A stretch of DNA of 45,269 nucleotides from a virus. The notes beneath the pieces are model-generated. The model was not told where the DNA came from. It saw only the letters and a list, made by a program, of their open reading frames with translations, and made no database searches. The DNA lies in the IMG/VR virus record IMGVR_UViG_3300024243_000033, positions 1-45,269 of that record. The stretch is one strand, 5' to 3'. The position numbers were made by a program, and so were the translations under genes. Below are positions 2,661-17,418 of the stretch, piece by piece; within the stretch, counting starts at the first letter, position 1, and every line of letters starts with the position of its first letter.

Positions 2661-3065
2661 TTATCCTAGCATAGCGAGTATTGCTTTCATAGCAGTACGC
2701 TTCTTTTCTTTGTCATCGCTATAGCGAGCATCGTTTCCTATTTGATAAGCAATTCCCTTAATCATAGGGTCGGCAGACAAAAACTTTTGTACTATAGGTT
2801 CTGTTTTTGGAATGGGATCCTGACGATCTGTTATGTCTTGAAAAATTGAAAGAATGTAACCCTTAAATTGTTTTCCGGCTCCAGAATCGGTCGCTACATC
2901 TTTTTCAACATTGAACTTTCCTTTGGCAACTAGATCTTCGTAACTCTTGTAAAAGCCTGTTGGGCTTGCGAATCTCCACCAACTGGGAGTCTCTCTTTCT
3001 TCATTAACAGCCGCTTCTAGTTCTTCTTTGATTATCTGCTTAAGTCTGTTTTTTGTAATTTTCAT
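2661..3065 (-). CDS. 134-aa protein with MKITK...IIKEEL N-terminus
   Basis: The family is unknown. The first 22 residues (MKITKNRLKQIIKEELEAAV) are nearly the same as the start of the 273-aa protein at 11329-12150, although the bodies are unrelated. The basic helix followed by I-K-E fits a capsid-targeting and cleavage sequence. The body has a WWRFASPTGFYKSYEDL segment and a helical C-terminus. It ends with TAAAACAATG leading into the possible 21-aa ORF. The upstream neighbour is the small membrane protein, 3 bases away. Confidence 0.78.
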   Translation of the reverse strand: MKITKNRLKQIIKEELEAAVNEERETPSWWRFASPTGFYKSYEDLVAKGKFNVEKDVATDSGAGKQFKGYILSIFQDITDRQDPIPKTEPIVQKFLSADPMIKGIAYQIGNDARYSDDKEKKRTAMKAILAMLG

Positions 3066-9678: not shown

Positions 9679-10088
9679 TGGGTCACCGCTTGTTGAATAC
9701 CGTAGTAACTAGCGCCACCCAATACGATACCACCTGCGAACCAGAGCCACTTACGTTGTGGTGCTTGTTTCTTAATGATTGTTTGTTGCTTTTCAATCAC
9801 AAGGTCTTTTTGTGCTATAATCTCTGTGTATTGTTGATCAAGAGTAACAATCCTCGCTTCAAGAAGTTTCTTGTCAAGTTTGCATTGGGTTCCTGCCTTG
9901 TCAAGCTGAAACTCCACTTTAAGCTCACACTTCAATTGTGCCTCTTCATACTTTGCTAATACCTCGGCAGCGGCAGGCACGCTAAGTAAAACGCCCTCAA
10001 ATGGAGCGGGCTGATCTTCTGCGACGACTGTAAAGTCTTCGGCGCTTGCAGTTGAGAGTAAAGCAAGCAACATTAGGCTATTCAACAT
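9675..10088 (-). CDS. Spanin-like lysis protein: signal peptide, coiled coil, C-terminal TM
   Basis: The protein has 137 aa. Residues 1-16 (MLNSLMLLALLSTASA) are a signal peptide with a signal-peptidase-I type A-x-A end, then a short PAPFEGVLLS segment, a long coiled coil (40-110) with two cysteines (C54, C69), and a C-terminal membrane helix (115-131, WFAGGIVLGGASYYG). The topology recalls a u-spanin, but there is no lipobox cysteine, so outer-membrane anchoring is not shown. It follows the Rz-like gene with an 11-base overlap. Proteins of this form are frequent next to phage holins; the exact role is open. Confidence 0.72.
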   Translation of the reverse strand: MLNSLMLLALLSTASAEDFTVVAEDQPAPFEGVLLSVPAAAEVLAKYEEAQLKCELKVEFQLDKAGTQCKLDKKLLEARIVTLDQQYTEIIAQKDLVIEKQQTIIKKQAPQRKWLWFAGGIVLGGASYYGIQQAVTQ

Positions 10089-10458
10089 ATCTTAATCCGT
10101 AGGTCTCTTCAAAGCGCTGTATAATCAGAGCCTTGTCTTGTTTGAACTCTTTTATTATAACTTCTTTTTCTGCTCTCGTTAAGTCCTTTATCTCGGCTTG
10201 TCGTGCTTCGTATTCCAACTCTAGCTCTTCTATCTCAATACGATACTGCTCAAGAGCTTCATCACGCAGACGCAACTCTTCGGTATGTAGGGATTGTAGT
10301 GTGCTTATCTGGTCTTTTAATGACTGCTCTGCAATCTCGTGTGCTTTGATAATGTTGCGTACATCATACTGCGACTTGCCAAATACGACAAGAAGGAGAA
10401 GGACAAGTCCAATCTCCTTCCAATGTTTTAAGCAGAATGCTAGAATCTTTTCTTTCAC
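10078..10458 (-). CDS. Inner-membrane spanin, Rz-like, GTG start
   Basis: A 126-aa type II membrane protein: a short basic cytoplasmic end (MKEKILAFCLKHWKE), one membrane helix (about 15-27, IGLVLLLLVVFG), then a continuous charged coiled coil to about residue 115. This is the layout of lambda Rz and other i-spanins, which span the periplasm to help fuse inner and outer membranes at lysis. It starts with GTG at 10458 in a GTGA overlap with the holin gene. The next gene overlaps its end, as Rz1-type partners often do. Confidence 0.78.
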   Translation of the reverse strand: MKEKILAFCLKHWKEIGLVLLLLVVFGKSQYDVRNIIKAHEIAEQSLKDQISTLQSLHTEELRLRDEALEQYRIEIEELELEYEARQAEIKDLTRAEKEVIIKEFKQDKALIIQRFEETYGLRYVE

Positions 10459-10658
10459 TCAAGTCCCTTGAGCTTTACAATAGCGTCAATTACGGATTGA
10501 CCACCGAGATAAAGACCAGAGATAATAACCCAGTCTGCTGATTCTAGTCCGCCCCAAGCCATAAGACCTGTAGCAGTGAGCCACACAAGTAGTTTGCGGG
10601 AAGTTAGTTTTTGTATGCCGCTGTCAAGTAGTGCTTGCTTCTGCTCTTTGCTCATCAT
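10455..10658 (-). CDS. Holin-like protein, two transmembrane helices
   Basis: It has 67 aa: a charged N-terminus, two membrane helices (about 23-39, LLVWLTATGLMAWGGL, and 43-58, WVIISGLYLGGQSVI) and a short Lys-containing tail. Size, topology and position before a spanin pair fit a class II-type holin, which opens the inner membrane at lysis time. The double ATG at 10658/10655 overlaps the stop of the 225-aa gene, so two starts three bases apart are possible. No endolysin is seen nearby. Confidence 0.75.
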   Translation of the reverse strand: MMSKEQKQALLDSGIQKLTSRKLLVWLTATGLMAWGGLESADWVIISGLYLGGQSVIDAIVKLKGLE

Positions 10659-11332
10659 TTAGCACCCATACTCTTTAGTTGCTCGTAGATAAGACCAATG
10701 AGAACTGGCAAGGACATAACACCAATTAGCGGCGCCATCTTCTGTAATGCATCGGCAACAACTTGCATATTCTCAGCATTGATGTTTTCGATGCCTTCTT
10801 GCATTGCGCCGTATGGGGCGCCGCCGCCTCTCATTTTACTCATCAATTTGCCAAGTGCTTCATTTGCCATGTCTTGAGGCTTGCGTCCAGGGCGGTCCAT
10901 CATGATTTCTTTGATTATGTCTAGCAGGTCGTCTTCGGACATCTTGAACATTTCTGCTTCTGCCATAATCTCTTCTTTGATTAGAGCGAGTAGCTCTGAC
11001 TTTTTGATTTTCATTGTGTTTTGTCCCTTTTTAGATTCGAAGAAAGCCGATGGGTTTTTCGCCATGTGGTCTCTCAACTTGGCAGCCTCTTCTTTGTTTA
11101 GTGTAATCCTGAAGCCGCCATTGTGACGCCTCATTCCGCTCAAGTCGAAACCGGCAAGCTCAAGGCGGTCAAGTGTAGCCGGGTGGCGCACCGAAAAATC
11201 AACAGTGTCAATTTCTATAGAGGGTGCTGTTCCCTCTTTCTTCATTTCTGCTGGAATAGTGTTGTCGTCGGACGGATCGTCCATAATCTCTTCTTTGATT
11301 AGAGCGAGTAGCTCTGACTTTTTGATTTTCAT
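10655..11332 (-). CDS. 225-aa protein carrying its targeting N-terminus twice
   Basis: The ORF begins MKIKKSELLALIKEEIM and repeats the same 17 residues from residue 107. The first unit has a small folded-looking domain (RHPATLDRLELAGFDL, then MRRHNGGFRITL). The second has an acidic helical part, a Gly-rich segment and a hydrophobic C-terminal helix (LIGVMSLPVLIGLIYEQL). Each leader contains I-K-E, a gp21-type cleavage pattern. The internal ATG at 11014 has AGGGA about 9-10 bases upstream, so the second unit may also be made separately as 119 aa. The first start has AAGGA and follows the 273-aa gene with a 4-base overlap. The function is unknown. Confidence 0.8.
   Translation of the reverse strand: MKIKKSELLALIKEEIMDDPSDDNTIPAEMKKEGTAPSIEIDTVDFSVRHPATLDRLELAGFDLSGMRRHNGGFRITLNKEEAAKLRDHMAKNPSAFFESKKGQNTMKIKKSELLALIKEEIMAEAEMFKMSEDDLLDIIKEIMMDRPGRKPQDMANEALGKLMSKMRGGGAPYGAMQEGIENINAENMQVVADALQKMAPLIGVMSLPVLIGLIYEQLKSMGAK
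10963..11015 (-). repeat. 53-bp exact direct repeat, copy downstream in the gene
   Basis: Identical over 53 bases to 11281-11333. It encodes residues 107-123 (MKIKKSELLALIKEEIM) plus one base before the ATG. The offset is 318 bases, exactly 106 codons, so the reading frame is kept. The absence of any mismatch points to a recent duplication or to gene conversion. Confidence 0.95.
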
Positions 11333-11333
11333 T
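11281..11333 (-). repeat. 53-bp exact direct repeat, copy at the gene start
   Basis: Partner of the copy at 10963-11015, covering codons 1-17 of the 225-aa gene. Only the leader is duplicated. The protein that follows is different in each copy. Confidence 0.95.
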
Positions 11334-12150
11334 TTTTATCCTTTGCGATCTTTGTCGCCGTTGCGTACATTACGCTTTCGGCGTCATCGCCATAGCGTTG
11401 CTTGAAGTCACCCTTAGATTTCTTCATACCTTTAACTACTCTCTCTTTTTCCTTTTTTTCAGGTTTAGAGAGTTTTTTCTCTTCCATCTTCTTGTTTACA
11501 GCAGAATAGAATCTATCAAGCTTGTCTTGGGGTGTCTTCTTATCTGTCTTGCTTAGCTTGCGAGTGGAGGGTGTTTCTTTTTTCTTTCCAAATTCTCCAC
11601 CAAACAAGCCCTCGCTTAATGCATTAGCATAGTCTTCTGGTGATTGTCCGCTCATCCAAGCATCGTAGGGATTTGGAGAGTTATCATCGATCTGAGCACC
11701 ATTATTGTAAGCAGTAGCTATCCATCTTTCAAAAGACATTTGCTGACCGGCAACAGCCTGGGCATCATCCATCTTTTGCTGATCTCTAAACTGCTCTGAT
11801 TCTCTAACAGGTTCGGGCATCGGGCGAGCTTTTGGTCTGTAAGCGCGACCAAGTTGTCGTTGTGCTGCGCCAATAGAGACGCCAGACTCGCCTGTGAATG
11901 CGGAGGATAAGAAATCAATGCTAACATCTAGTCCATCAATAGAATCTGTTAGTTTGCCGATTGCGTCAAGAAGCGCGGGGTCAGATTGGATCTCTTCCAT
12001 TATTGCTTCTTTTGTAATTTCTTTGCTTTCCATCGCCTCTACTTCGGCGCGGACTTCTTCGCCAAACATCTCCTCGACCTCTTCATTCGTGAGGACTACT
12101 TGGAGTTCTTCTTTGATAATTTGTTTTAGTTTGGCTTTTGTTATTTTCAT
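11329..12150 (-). CDS. 273-aa protein with MKITK leader and YATATK C-terminus
   Basis: The N-terminus MKITKAKLKQIIKEELQVVL matches that of the 134-aa protein at 2661-3065; the bodies differ. The middle is acidic and disordered, with a PMSFERWIATAYNNG-like folded part around residues 130-175. The C-terminus is very basic (170-273) and ends VVKGMKKSKGDFKQRYGDDAES, then VMYATATKIAKDKK, a closing motif I have seen in other marine phage proteins of unknown role. A targeting leader plus a basic DNA-binding-like tail fits an internal, DNA-associated capsid protein (inference). The ATG overlaps the stop of the gp46 relic as TAATG. Confidence 0.8.
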   Translation of the reverse strand: MKITKAKLKQIIKEELQVVLTNEEVEEMFGEEVRAEVEAMESKEITKEAIMEEIQSDPALLDAIGKLTDSIDGLDVSIDFLSSAFTGESGVSIGAAQRQLGRAYRPKARPMPEPVRESEQFRDQQKMDDAQAVAGQQMSFERWIATAYNNGAQIDDNSPNPYDAWMSGQSPEDYANALSEGLFGGEFGKKKETPSTRKLSKTDKKTPQDKLDRFYSAVNKKMEEKKLSKPEKKEKERVVKGMKKSKGDFKQRYGDDAESVMYATATKIAKDKK

Positions 12151-12329
12151 TATTGATTTACCTCTGCGAATCCGCTTTCTTTTTCAATCACAATCTGCAT
12201 GTCTACACAATCCTTGAGAGAATCAAGGTGAGAAATCAGCAGGACGTTCTTGAAATACACCTTAATTAGTTCCAAGATCCGAATAAATCCAGCCATATTC
12301 TCTTCATCAATAAAAGATAGGTTAAAAGG
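12150..12329 (-). pseudogene. Relic of a second gp46/SbcC C-terminus, in frame after the stop
   Basis: After the TAA of the nuclease gene (12330-12332) the same frame stays open for 59 codons. It encodes a divergent copy of the gene's last 54 residues: DEENMAGFIRILE against DEEHMEGFVRMLE, then LLISHLDSLKDCVDM in both. By eye 33 of 54 positions are identical, with many silent changes in the shared block. It holds the ABC H-loop (ISHLD) but no Walker or signature motif. Its stop overlaps the next ATG as TAATG, the join expected of an intact operon. It is probably the end of a former resident gene left by recombination. A short product from an internal ATG (NMAGF) cannot be excluded. Confidence 0.85.
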
Positions 12330-15300
12330 TTACATTCTTACCTTTGCAAAGCCATCAATTTTGCTGATCTCTATCGTCATATCTACGCAGTCTTTGAGAG
12401 AATCTAAATGTGAAATAAGCAAAATAGTGCCAAATTGACTCTTCACCACTTCAAGCATTCTTACAAAACCCTCCATATGTTCTTCATCTAAGGAGGTTGC
12501 TGGTTCATCAAGTACAAAAACTGAGCCGCGAGGCAAGTTTGTTACTGCAACCATAGCGATGCGAATAGCCATAGCAGCCATAGTCTTCTCCGCACCTGAC
12601 GCCATCTCAATAGGGCGAGCCTCGTGCTTGGGGTGCTTGATAAAAATGTCAAACTTGTTGCCTGTAGTCTCAAAAAAGATTTCAAAATCTACAACATTCG
12701 CTAGAATCTTTGCGATCTCTTCGTTGATTACAGGCAACTTCTGTTTAATGATGTCGTAAGCAATCCCGTTCGGATGCATACACCGCAAGAATAGATCATA
12801 CGATGAATACTCCGACTGGATTGTCTCAAACTCTAGTCTTCTTTCTTTGAGGTCTTGGATTCGTTGTTCTTCTGATCCGAGAGATTTGTAAAAATCAATC
12901 TTCTTCTGGCTATTTGACTCAACTTGTTCCTTAACGGATTGCGTTTCTTTGACATATAGTTCTTTCTCCTTTAGTAGTTTTTCTAGATTCTCAATTGCTT
13001 CTTTGTTGTCGTTATAAGAAGCTTGCTTTTGTGCTAGCTCGTCCATCAAAGCTTTGTGCCTATCAAGGGCAGACTTGCGGCGCTCAATACTCAATTGTAG
13101 GTCTTTGATAAAACCATCAGTTTCGCTTTGCTTTTTTTCAAGCTTACGATACTTGTCTAGGTGATCTCTAACAACCTGTGGGTTTAAGTTAGAGAGTCTG
13201 TCCTGTAGCTCTTCGATCTTGCTTTCCGTTTCAGGAATAACTGCTGTGGCTACATGGGCATCACGAATGAACTTACAAGCAGGGTAGGTCGTGCCGCACG
13301 GAATGTCTTCTAATAACTTTTTCTTTTCAGTCGCAACCTCTATCAGTTGTGTGTGAGTTTGAAGGCTACTTTCAGCTTCTTCAATGCTCACAAGAGAACT
13401 TGTAAGATTGTTGTAATCTAGAGTTTCTAGAAGATTTGAGATCTTATCAAATCGTTCTCTTTCACTATGTAGTCTGCTCGCATCATCAATGATTGAATCT
13501 GATAAAGAAATTATCTTATTTTTTGTCTTTTTGATCTCGGACTGAACCTCGTGGATGTCGATCACATCCGTTGGGATGTTGGAGATCTTGATAGAGAGGT
13601 TTTGGACGTTCTGGCTTGCGAAGGCGAGCTTTGCCTCAAGCCTGATCTTGTCGGCTTCGACCTCCAAGATTGCCGCCTTATGCTGCTCTATGGCGTCCTG
13701 AGCCTTTTGAATCTCCTTATCGTAGTCGCGACCCTGTAGCTTCTTGATTAGAACTTTGGACGACTGGGCGTCTTCTTTGGCAAACTTGAACTTCTTATCG
13801 AAGAACTGGAGATCCAAGAACTTAGCGATAATCTCCTTGCGCTTAGTCGAACCCTCATTAATAAACGCAAGAGCGCCGTGCTGTGATGAGAGAGACGAGA
13901 TAAGGAAATCATCAATCGTCCCAAAGTGCTTACGGATGTTCGCGTCAGTCTGGTTGCGGGTCGTGCCGTTTAGTGATGTAGTCTCATCTGTAACAGGGTC
14001 ATAGACAGAAAAATCAAGATGAGTCTTTGCCTCAATAGAGGTTTCGCCCTTTGACTTCTTTTCGTACTTCTCGACCTTGCGATGAACTGTGTAGGACTTA
14101 TCGCCAATCGCGATTGTGATCTTTCCACCACCCCAGTCGCGATTCTGATTTACGACATTAACATTCTTGCGCTCGTTTTTGCTTGTTGTGTTAAAGACTG
14201 TAAATAGAATTGCGTCAATGATAGATGACTTGCCTGAGAAGTTCTTACCAAAGATGCCCGTAATGCCGTTTACTTTGCGGAAATCGATAGAGTTGTTTTC
14301 TCCGTAGTTGAACAGGTTAGACCACTCAAAGTTTACAAGTTCCCAATTCACATTACGACTAACATCCTCTTTTGCTTCTACTTGCTGGTTGTATTTGGAA
14401 TTGAGTTCATAAATCGTAGACATAACATCAGGCTTAACCTGATAGTCTTTGAGGTATTCTGAAATAAGTTCCTGCTGGATCTCTGGATCTCGGAGGTTCT
14501 GTATTCCAATACCATCAGTAATCTCTTCAACATTCCCGCGTTTACCAGCAGATCTGTTTAAGAATGAGATCGACTCTGGCTTAAACTTATGGCGAGCAAC
14601 ATCAACAGCCTTACGCATCACATCGAGCGATAGGTTGTTGTCGCTGACGATACGCAGGCGGGCTCTATTGGGCACCGATGCTCTACGGGGAATCTTGCCT
14701 GTTGGGGTTAGCTCTACTGTGATAAATGGGCGCGGGTTCTGGAGCGTAAAGTGCTCGATGTCCCAATCATCTTTGGAGCCAATTGTCCAGATAGAGAAGC
14801 CCTTGTCGTCACTCTCTCCGTGGTTCTGCTGAACTGTGGAACCAGCGTAGTATACACGACCAGCATCGTCAAGAAACTGGCGCTTGTGAATGTCGCCAAG
14901 CATCGCAAAGTCAAACTCTTCAAAGATGGAGAGATTGTCTTCTCCGTGCTCCATCGTCCAACCAGCGTCAGTTTGGCAGTTAGAGATGGCGCCGTGATAG
15001 AGGGCGATGTTAATCTTGTCTGGATCGGTGGGCTGAACCCAATTGTCTCGGTCAAACACCGATAAGACATTCAGGACGACATTGCCGTAAGCAAGGGAGG
15101 TCTCGCCAGAGTTCTTTAGCAGACGAATGTGGGCACTATCGAGTGCCTGGACGATTGGCGTAATAGCATCTTGGCGATTGCTGTTCTTTAGGTTGCCGTC
15201 GTGGTTTCCTAAAATAATAAAAGTGGTCGCAATCTTGCTTAGATTGCTGAAAAAGTCTGACGCCATCTCTACAAATTCTGGTGAGATTTGTGTCTTTGTG

Positions 15301-15455
15301 TGTGCGATGTCGCCGCAATGAATGATGTAGTCTACGTCTTGCTCTCGCAAGGTCTCGTACATCTGCTCAAAGCAGGCGCGATAATCTTCGTGATACTTCA
15401 GATTCTTGATGTGAGTATCAGCAATATGTGCGATTTTAACAGGTGTGCGTTTCAA
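12330..15455 (-). CDS. SbcD-SbcC (gp47-gp46, Mre11-Rad50) fusion nuclease, TTG start
   Basis: One 1041-aa chain joins the nuclease and ATPase that T4 encodes as genes 47 and 46. Residues 1-350 are a calcineurin-like phosphoesterase with metal motifs IADTH (D13, H15), HCGD (48-49), GNHD (83-86), YHG (153-155) and LGDIH (186-190). Residues 370-1041 are Rad50-like: Walker A GKNFSGKSS (403-411), long coiled coils, a hook-like CGTTYPAC (C720, C727), signature ASGAEKT (about 950), Walker B VFVLDEPATSLDEE (about 980) and H-loop LLISHLD (about 1010). The complex resects DNA ends for recombination-driven replication. The start is TTG at 15455 with GGAG 5 bases upstream. A sigma70-type promoter lies 125-153 bases upstream. 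Confidence 0.95.
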   Translation of the reverse strand: MKRTPVKIAHIADTHIKNLKYHEDYRACFEQMYETLREQDVDYIIHCGDIAHTKTQISPEFVEMASDFFSNLSKIATTFIILGNHDGNLKNSNRQDAITPIVQALDSAHIRLLKNSGETSLAYGNVVLNVLSVFDRDNWVQPTDPDKINIALYHGAISNCQTDAGWTMEHGEDNLSIFEEFDFAMLGDIHKRQFLDDAGRVYYAGSTVQQNHGESDDKGFSIWTIGSKDDWDIEHFTLQNPRPFITVELTPTGKIPRRASVPNRARLRIVSDNNLSLDVMRKAVDVARHKFKPESISFLNRSAGKRGNVEEITDGIGIQNLRDPEIQQELISEYLKDYQVKPDVMSTIYELNSKYNQQVEAKEDVSRNVNWELVNFEWSNLFNYGENNSIDFRKVNGITGIFGKNFSGKSSIIDAILFTVFNTTSKNERKNVNVVNQNRDWGGGKITIAIGDKSYTVHRKVEKYEKKSKGETSIEAKTHLDFSVYDPVTDETTSLNGTTRNQTDANIRKHFGTIDDFLISSLSSQHGALAFINEGSTKRKEIIAKFLDLQFFDKKFKFAKEDAQSSKVLIKKLQGRDYDKEIQKAQDAIEQHKAAILEVEADKIRLEAKLAFASQNVQNLSIKISNIPTDVIDIHEVQSEIKKTKNKIISLSDSIIDDASRLHSERERFDKISNLLETLDYNNLTSSLVSIEEAESSLQTHTQLIEVATEKKKLLEDIPCGTTYPACKFIRDAHVATAVIPETESKIEELQDRLSNLNPQVVRDHLDKYRKLEKKQSETDGFIKDLQLSIERRKSALDRHKALMDELAQKQASYNDNKEAIENLEKLLKEKELYVKETQSVKEQVESNSQKKIDFYKSLGSEEQRIQDLKERRLEFETIQSEYSSYDLFLRCMHPNGIAYDIIKQKLPVINEEIAKILANVVDFEIFFETTGNKFDIFIKHPKHEARPIEMASGAEKTMAAMAIRIAMVAVTNLPRGSVFVLDEPATSLDEEHMEGFVRMLEVVKSQFGTILLISHLDSLKDCVDMTIEISKIDGFAKVRM

Positions 15456-15467
15456 GTTATCTCCAGG

Positions 15468-15563
15468 CTAGAAACAAATGTTGTAAAAGGCAATTCCAGC
15501 GAACCAGCCGACATACATCGCGATGCCATCTACCAAAGCGTTAAAACAAAACTTGATCATCAT
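15468..15563 (-). CDS. Small hydrophobic ORF, 31 aa, between promoter and nuclease gene
   Basis: It reads MMIKFCFNALVDGIAMYVGW then FAGIAFYNICF, a single likely membrane helix after a Lys. The ribosome site GAAGGAG is the strongest in this region, 3 bases before the first ATG (15563) and 6 before the second (15560); the second is the better start. It is the first ORF after the promoter and ends 12 bases before the TTG of the nuclease gene, so it may also couple translation. No family is known to me. Confidence 0.6.
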   Translation of the reverse strand: MMIKFCFNALVDGIAMYVGWFAGIAFYNICF

Positions 15564-15579
15564 TATCTCCTTCACCTAT

Positions 15580-15608
15580 AATATAACGCAGGGAGGGCGA
15601 TTTGTCAA
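15580..15608 (-). promoter_or_regulatory. Sigma70-type promoter for the 31-aa ORF and nuclease gene
   Basis: The minus strand has a perfect -35 TTGACA (15603-15608), a 17-base spacer and -10 TATATT (15580-15585); a shifted TATTAT also fits. It sits in one of the window's few real gaps, directly before GAAGGAG and the 31-aa ORF. It fits an early-type promoter read by host RNA polymerase. Confidence 0.82.
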
Positions 15609-15612
15609 GCGA

Positions 15613-16476
15613 TTAGAGGCGTCCTCTACTCTTTCTCTTGTTCAAGAGTTCATAAGCAACTGACCACTCAAGCGGCAATATAGCATAGGGAGAGTCTGCG
15701 GTGTATCCCTGAAAGAGCTTGTTGTTGTCGTAAGCCCAAAAGCCAGAAGAGCCTTTTGCGCCCTTGCCCATAACAAGATTTTCTAATCTTTCATCCCCTC
15801 CCGGTCCAGACAAGAAAGTTGCCCTCAAGAGTGTTTCATAGTCTTTCTTTGAAATTCCCATAAAAGGCATTGTTTCATCATCTGGAATTTGAGAAGCAGG
15901 CACGTAGGCAAACCCCTTTAGATTACCTTTACTTGGATCTCCTCCAATGAAGATTCCGCGACCGGGTGAAATGGGAGCAACATCTACAGACCCGCCATAG
16001 GTTTTGATAATTTCTTTGATCTTGGCGTCCACTTCTTCTGGTGTTGTAGCGGTGCCGCTTTCTGCTTCAGCAGCAGCCATCTGCATAAAGCTCTGGACAT
16101 CTTTAGATTGCTCGGCGCTTTGTTGGAGTGAAGATCTTACTTTTTGAGCGTCGGCGGCTGCGTCAGAACTGAGTTCGCTATAGTCAAAGACGCCTTGCTC
16201 TACAGCACCACCCAACATTCCAACTAAAAATAGAATGCCTATCCTCTTTGATCTAGGCATTTTGTTTAGAATTTCTGGATTTGATTCGACGGCATCTACT
16301 TCTTTCTCTATTTGATCATCACTTTTGTTTGGAAAGAATTTATTTTTTAGATTCTTTATGGTGTCGAGCACACCCTCTTCAATAATCTGATTTGTGGTAT
16401 TCTCGATGAGAAGATCTGCCTGTATCTCCTCAAGGATAATGTTTTTTATTTGTTTCTTTGTAAAAGCGTGTTTCAT
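15613..16476 (-). CDS. 287-aa protein with targeting-type N-terminus and a membrane-like segment
   Basis: No family recognised. It starts MKHAFTKKQIKNIILEEIQA, a basic helix with I-L-E, and has a further L-I-E at 23-25. Residues about 80-95 are hydrophobic (IGILFLVGMLGGAV), then an Ala/Ser/Glu-rich helix (105-145) and a globular C-terminal half with a GRGIFIGGDPSKGNLKGFAY segment. It lies between primase and the promoter, 4 bases from the primase stop, without a clear SD, so it is probably coupled. A packaged protein with a membrane-active part would fit an ejection role; that is speculation. Confidence 0.75.
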   Translation of the reverse strand: MKHAFTKKQIKNIILEEIQADLLIENTTNQIIEEGVLDTIKNLKNKFFPNKSDDQIEKEVDAVESNPEILNKMPRSKRIGILFLVGMLGGAVEQGVFDYSELSSDAAADAQKVRSSLQQSAEQSKDVQSFMQMAAAEAESGTATTPEEVDAKIKEIIKTYGGSVDVAPISPGRGIFIGGDPSKGNLKGFAYVPASQIPDDETMPFMGISKKDYETLLRATFLSGPGGDERLENLVMGKGAKGSSGFWAYDNNKLFQGYTADSPYAILPLEWSVAYELLNKRKSRGRL

Positions 16477-16479
16477 TAA

Positions 16480-17418
16480 TCATATCGCCGACAGTAAATC
16501 TAGCAATAAGTAGTTGTCGCGGTCGATAAACGTTGCTTCTTTTTTACGTTGCTCAAAAATTTCTTGCGGCATCTCGCCCACATCATCATAGCCTCTAACA
16601 TCAATCTTATGTAACTCCACATCATAGCGCAGGAGCGTCTGGATAATCCTGCGCTCCTTGTTGGCTGCGTCGGGATCTAGGGCGATGTAACAGGGCGTGT
16701 CGTTGCGAACGATGTTGCGCAACAGATTGGAATCCTGGCGTAGAGTAGAACCCAAGATTGGAACAGAGTTGCCTGCTCGGATAGCATCGAAGACGCCCTC
16801 AACAATTACCAAATCCTTGTTCCAGTTTGTGAATAGATCGTTGAACACAACGTTTTTTGATGATCGTGGGTTCTTGTATTTCATCCCGTGTCCCACATAA
16901 GAACGGGCAATAAAATAATTGGGATAACCCGTCATTCCGAAAGACGGCACGATGATCCTGCCGCCATACTCTCCATCATAGCAGAAGCCAATCTTCCAAC
17001 GCTGGATGTCTTCTCTTGTTATCCCTCTCTCGGTGAGGTAACGTAGTGCTCTATTAGCAGACAGAGGTAGGTTCTTGTTTGCGAGACTTACGAATTCTTG
17101 CGGGAGTTCAAGTTTTGCTTCGATTTCTTCATCGCTTTCGTCCATAAAGAGTTCAGCAAAGCGTGAAATATCTGTCCGGTCTGTAATCTGGTCCCATTTT
17201 TGTAGTTGAGTATACGGACCAAAGCGTCTAATAACACGCCTAATGTTGCGACCAGAGTAATCACAAACCCAACAATGAAAAGCATTCTTGTCCAAGTTAA
17301 CAGAGAATTTGCGCTTGTGGTGACCGCACGACGGGCACGAGAAAAGAAGCTCTGATCCCTTGTCCCAGTAGCCTCCAAGAGTTTCATGAAGGATTTTGGT
17401 AGCGGCTGTTTTGTTCAT
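16480..17418 (-). CDS. DNA primase, DnaG/T4 gp61-type
   Basis: It makes RNA primers for lagging-strand synthesis. The N-terminal zinc site uses CPSC (C28, C31) and CWVC (C49, C52), the CHC2-like ribbon. The TOPRIM core has VIVEGVFDAIRAG (E207) and ALDPDAAN (D248, D250). At 312 aa it is close to gp61-size phage primases and has no fused helicase; no helicase gene is in the window. No SD stands before the ATG at 17418. The resolvase gene ends 21 bases upstream. Confidence 0.92.
   Translation of the reverse strand: MNKTAATKILHETLGGYWDKGSELLFSCPSCGHHKRKFSVNLDKNAFHCWVCDYSGRNIRRVIRRFGPYTQLQKWDQITDRTDISRFAELFMDESDEEIEAKLELPQEFVSLANKNLPLSANRALRYLTERGITREDIQRWKIGFCYDGEYGGRIIVPSFGMTGYPNYFIARSYVGHGMKYKNPRSSKNVVFNDLFTNWNKDLVIVEGVFDAIRAGNSVPILGSTLRQDSNLLRNIVRNDTPCYIALDPDAANKERRIIQTLLRYDVELHKIDVRGYDDVGEMPQEIFEQRKKEATFIDRDNYLLLDLLSAI

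Follow-up and report, generated by a model that had tools for sequence, protein, structure and literature searches.

Two gp46 tails in tandem behind a fused Mre11-Rad50 gene: probable scar of a one-sided illegitimate recombination in a phage genome

The window, i.e. the whole stretch of 45,269 nucleotides analysed here (IMG/VR record IMGVR_UViG_3300024243_000033), most likely derives from an aquatic virus. Its fused Mre11-Rad50 (gp47-gp46) nuclease gene ends in a tail unlike that of its relatives, and a second gp46 tail of the type normal for these relatives follows in the same frame. This locus is very probably the scar of a one-sided illegitimate recombination in a phage of clade A, the clade of the window and of the relatives L002-L015, L019 and L026. 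The observation is real and well bounded, and it belongs to a known kind, that of recombination scars in mosaic phage genes. The following features are referred to.

12330-15455, minus strand: fused Mre11-Rad50 (gp47-gp46) nuclease ORF, 1041 amino acids, TTG start as listed.
12562..15455, minus strand: native clade-A body of the nuclease, residues 1-965, from PHROG and Pfam matches and identity to L002.
12562..12587, minus strand: 26-nt block identical in the window and L002, taken from mismatch positions to hold the left crossover.
12309..12561, minus strand: segment of 253 nt read as foreign from the identity drop and the tail tree (codons 966-1041, stop TAA and a spacer of ~21 nt).
12150..12308, minus strand: relic of a clade-A gp46 C-terminus, DEENMAGF to VNQ-stop, from the tails of relatives and tblastn.
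12150..12296, minus strand: ORF of 48 amino acids from an internal ATG of the relic, ending in TAATG, listed mechanically.
11329..12150, minus strand: next gene, a MKITKAKLKQIIKEEL-type variable cassette, from comparison with L002.

The nuclease stop codon (TAA, 12332-12330) is followed in frame by 59 sense codons (12329-12153), which run up to a TAA (12152-12150) that overlaps the next gene's ATG start in the sequence TAATG. Comparison of the last 54 nuclease residues with the downstream block gave 33/54 identical amino acids, or 34/55 with the stop included, and at the DNA level the two tails are identical at 100 of 165 nt, stop included. A block of 15 amino acids, LLISHLDSLKDCVDM, is common to both tails and 9 of its 15 codons differ silently. 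The in-frame repeat, the identical block with silent differences and the TAATG junction belonging to the downstream copy had all been noticed in a sequence-only reading of this DNA, and they were confirmed here. Since the downstream block matched the nuclease with E = 4.8e-16 (tblastn in the window) and positions 901-953 of PHROG 77 (SbcC-like) with E = 8.8e-5, the likeness is not due to chance.

Related phages were used to determine which of the two tails is the normal one. More than 90 related IMG/VR contigs have one gp46 tail each, and in clade A it is always of the relic type. Exactly one tail was also found in each of the further clade-A-type loci (best 80 of 523 matches, some of them lying on contigs of the first set), 27 of these 80 displaying the TAATG ending. 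The single-copy arrangement expected by the sequence-only reading was thus recovered, and neither the 80 loci nor the other fetched contigs revealed a second tandem. In one relative (L013:6930-6941), the TAATG overlap is replaced by a 10-nt insert with a Shine-Dalgarno-like AGGAG, which separates the gp46 stop from the ATG behind it. The downstream block of the window shows 86-94% nt identity to the tails of twelve relatives (92-94% to most), i.e. it matches the normal gp46 ending of the clade, and its designation as a relic is upheld. The allele is closest to L012 (94.2%), L005 and L010 (both 93.6%), followed by L002 (91.7%) and L013 (89.1%). Because the relatives closest in the body have a different tail allele, the idea that the old tail was left behind holds for the type of ending, and it is not certain that the relic is the tail of this same gene.

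The relic begins inside the D-loop and has no Walker B motif, therefore it forms no ATPase on its own. The changes unique to it amount to 2 silent and 2 replacement ones, few for the dN/dS test that had been suggested; for this reason the open frame does not argue for selection, and the relic is considered young. Through one replacement (AAG to GAG), the AAAGGT located ten nt ahead of the next start codon has become AGAGGT, which is a slightly better ribosome-binding match in a single case. Scanning of 12000-12700 for sigma-70 promoters and terminators gave none. Conservation of the short ORF in many relatives, named by the sequence-only reading as the sign of a real gene, was seen neither in the 80 clade-A loci (best 80 of 523) nor in the other fetched contigs, the identical record described below excepted; judged by these relatives, a functional short gene is not indicated. 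The relic is best read as a remnant of coding sequence that has no function of its own, or at most that of a leader.

The nuclease itself was characterised by profile matches, which identified PHROG 100 followed by PHROG 77 as well as the Pfam families Metallophos and AAA_23. The domains are Metallophos at residues 7-174, AAA_23 at 380-592 and SMC_N at 379-1030, so that an N-terminal Mre11-like phosphoesterase and a C-terminal Rad50-like ABC ATPase are joined in a single ORF. Along its length the body is 89-100% identical to L002 at the nucleotide level, including 371 identical nt at 12619-12989. The full set of ATPase motifs can be read in the translation of the chimera: GKNFSGKSS, SGAEK, VFVLDEP, SLDEE and LLISH, which correspond in this family to Walker A, the signature motif, Walker B, the D-loop and the H-loop, respectively. 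Of these, GKNFSGKSS and SGAEK belong to the body, and VFVLDEP, SLDEE and LLISH to the foreign piece. The chimeric nuclease is thus intact and complete in its motifs, and its nuclease and ATPase activities are putative. The locus suggests that a Rad50-like ATPase can tolerate having its Walker B, D-loop and H-loop exchanged, at least long enough for two samplings. The earlier proposal that the gp47-gp46 gene had been replaced by that of a related phage was right for the tail and too wide for the gene, as the body is native and only the last 76 codons are foreign.

The change of ancestry is abrupt. Identity to L002 is 100% at residues 823-942, 93% at 943-962 and 52% at 963-982. Upstream of the 26-nt block, the last mismatch to L002 is at 12588, and identity is gone from 12561 on, which places the ancestry switch within or at the end of the block 12587-12562. 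Beyond it the segment has about 50-70% nt identity to clade-A tails, and its protein shares EPAT, DEEHMEGF, VTNLP and TI-I with other lineages. In the tail tree it was placed outside clade A on a long branch (support 100/99), and a constraint into clade A was rejected weakly (AU p 0.039). Removal of identical rows moved it beside clades A and D (support 35/0), i.e. its exact position shifts with sampling and the branch is long and unstable. Searches with the 79 amino acids of this tail gave best matches of 65-68% amino acid identity in IMG/VR, with no donor among them, 38% at best in isolate phages, and weak matches of 32-38% in GTDB genomes. The tail in use is therefore read as foreign, probably from an unsampled distant gp46 lineage, and the ~21 nt spacer behind its stop is probably intergenic DNA of the donor.

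Compared with L002, 73 nt are absent (from the end of the AIR codon to the codon before DEEN) and 253 nt (12561-12309) are present instead. The right junction lies at GATGAAGAG, a short match that is found in part within the foreign tail as GATGAAGA; the donor's own downstream sequence is missing, so that homology at this end is not fully measurable, and the microhomology is short. The locus thus appears to combine an abrupt switch of ancestry at both ends with one end devoid of extended homology, as expected of an illegitimate recombination scar.

The chimera, its boundaries and the identity of the relic are established, and from them we infer the order of events, the way of joining and the nature of the donor as follows. 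DNA of a distant gp46 lineage would have recombined into the 3' end of a clade-A fused Mre11-Rad50 gene. The left crossover would have been homologous, in the conserved block coding for the stretch after the ABC signature (AAMAIR), and the right end would have been joined illegitimately, donor DNA ending ~21 nt past its own stop meeting the clade-A tail at GATGAAGAG. With 73 nt of the native gene lost and 253 nt gained, the outcome is a chimeric nuclease followed by a stranded native-type tail, which still supplies the TAATG junction of the next gene. The most likely mechanism, by analogy with T4, is one-sided illegitimate double-strand-break repair. As the locus still displays the two junctions together with the sequence lost and the sequence displaced, it can be read as a fossil of how a distant lineage supplied an active-site segment to a conserved phage repair gene.

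Following 371 nt identical to L002, four mismatches to this relative occur in the last 60 nt ahead of the junction, and everything between ~12618 and the next gene's start is exchanged in comparison with L002. The tandem may have been moved from another clade-A phage, or the relic may have come as the flank of a cassette. Since neither the relic nor the 60 nt are L002 alleles, the tandem may have been formed in another clade-A genome and brought here by ordinary recombination. The flank option belongs to a two-step history, a variant of the explanation preferred here and compatible with its core claim. The foreign tail and downstream genes would have replaced the native end, and a clade-A cassette, made of the last 54 gp46 codons as left flank, the TAATG and a gene with an MKITK start, would later have been joined behind, the relic being the incoming flank and not the old tail. 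The relic is indeed nearer to the tails of L012, L005 and L010 than to that of L002, to which the body is nearest, and across the clade tails are far more alike than bodies. Furthermore, the L002 orthologue of the next gene (18 mismatches in 820 nt, 98%) does not adjoin gp46; it is found ~1.1 kb further along, preceded by an unrelated gene and by different upstream sequence, so that the relic-cassette junction differs from L002. Two events are needed, however, where one suffices, and a reassortment of tails before the event would yield the same pattern of alleles; we regard this history as possible and rather doubtful.

Other origins of the tandem are far less probable than a recombination scar. 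A mobile element (homing endonuclease or intron with a substitute 3' end) that entered gp46 and was later lost would have co-converted its flanks, and illegitimate repair leads to microhomology junctions in T4 (PMC2988022). This second scenario of the sequence-only reading was not borne out and is quite unlikely: no Rfam intron family matched at 10000-16500, no homing endonuclease domain was detected among the seven products scanned, the relatives inspected carry no insertion between body and tail, and only ~21 nt separate the two tails of the window. Neither an endonuclease gene nor a catalytic intron was thus found at the site. That the assembly fused the gp46 ends of two phages might be suspected of a metagenomic contig, all the more as the exact junction patterns were present in no searched contig besides the window and a second IMG/VR record, 3300024258_000184 (16.6 kb; 16,633 bases). 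This record contains the same tandem and aligns to the window over 13,428 nt with no mismatch; the two could both derive from the same water. As records of different length agree base for base, misassembly by chance is unlikely, and with the frame and the TAATG junction clean an artefact is judged very improbable. A tandem duplication of the native tail with fast divergence of the upstream copy would account for LLISHLDSLKDCVDM in both copies, and the AU test against a clade-A origin of that copy reached a p of 0.039 only. Yet the identity to L002 drops at a single point, from 100-93% to 52%, and not gradually, the upstream copy carries the EPAT, DEEHMEGF and VTNLP of other lineages, and the relic has hardly changed, which makes a duplication very improbable.

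Evidence for exchange at this end of gp46 was also obtained from the relatives. Among twelve clade-A relatives, codon identity at agreeing residues is 0.84 in the last 50 codons compared to a gene median of 0.56; this value is among the four highest of 1011 overlapping windows, and each of these four falls within the tail. A second silent-site-conserved stretch of clade A (0.77-0.81) covers gp46 residues 823-862, about 12870-12989 of the window. Silent-site conservation of the tail is marked in clade A and only slight in B (0.55 vs 0.48), and clade C does not show it. Tail and body identity are hardly related among the 12 relatives (Spearman 0.12), as illustrated by L002/L004 (body 0.75, tail 0.98), L003/L012 (body 0.98, tail 0.93) and L003/L011 (body 0.68, tail 0.96). 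In 71 loci of the larger set (best 80 of 523) the median was 0.83 for the tail versus 0.54 for the preceding 500 codons, with a tail-body Spearman coefficient of 0.43 and pairs such as L107/L117 (body 0.54, tail 0.96). Clade-A gp46 tails have likely been reassorted in part across divergent bodies, and some tail exchange is likely real because constraint by itself hardly accounts for the pattern of L003, L012 and L011; part of the silent-site signal may come from a constrained, overlapping regulatory element.

The gene content directly behind the gp46 stop is hypervariable and often includes a gene starting with MKITK..L..IIKEE. The locus suggests that exchange takes place at the 3' end of gp46, beside a hypervariable gene slot. 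More tentatively, the final ~160 nt of gp46, together with the MKITK leader, might serve as a recombination anchor for the swapping of downstream cassette genes, a reading we consider somewhat unlikely; if it were true, the window would represent a failed or off-register exchange at the anchor, in the recombination nuclease's own gene. The 15-residue N-terminus MKITK..L.QIIKEE(L/I), with a conserved 45-nt DNA start, is common to many otherwise unlike small genes, which in the window are the following.

2661-3065, 11329-12150 and 10655-11332, minus strand: genes with the MKITK-type N-terminus; many such genes occur in L002-L026 and L020-L041.

The (I/L)-x-E ending recalls the cleaved capsid-targeting leaders of T4 internal proteins, and by this analogy the N-terminus is a possible tag for virion-packaged proteins. 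The product of 225 amino acids at 10655-11332 (minus strand) contains the N-terminal peptide MKIKKSELLALIKEEIM twice, at positions 1 and 107, a doubling also present in L002, and it looks like two fused cassette genes, each with its own leader. MKITK cassette genes stand in tandem at L003:5447-5838 and L013:7668-8603, several leaders being near-identical, which suggests local duplication or exchange via the leader. A further motif, ACTATTTA, occurs 9 times in the window with 1.2 expected, 8 times on the coding strand.

3212, 8971, 21805, 22037, 22428, 28775, 38703 and 41644, minus strand; 42034, plus strand: ACTATTTA sites.

Several copies lie ~16-35 nt upstream of gene starts (8943, 21785, 41628), and a similar CTATTTA is found behind the gp46 stop in L021, L036, L060 and L062. 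ACTATTTA is a candidate phage promoter motif.

Fusion proteins of Mre11 and Rad50 (SbcD/SbcC) have been described (PMC3175470) and the gene of the window is such a fusion, with the difference that its Rad50 C-terminal piece is chimeric. In T4, one-sided illegitimate double-strand-break repair involves extensive degradation and leaves microhomology at the junctions (Parker et al. 1999, reviewed in PMC2988022). The locus has in common with it one homologous and one microhomology junction and the unequal lengths lost and gained; in contrast to T4, neither an intron nor an endonuclease is present, and the event was deduced from a fossil instead of being observed. T4-type genomes are mosaic, also within genes (PMC2993671), and C-terminal swaps are known for fibritin (PMC3797505). 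Here too, the C-terminal part of a conserved gene has been swapped between lineages, but part of the replaced-type end remains, so that two tails in tandem make the swap recognisable.
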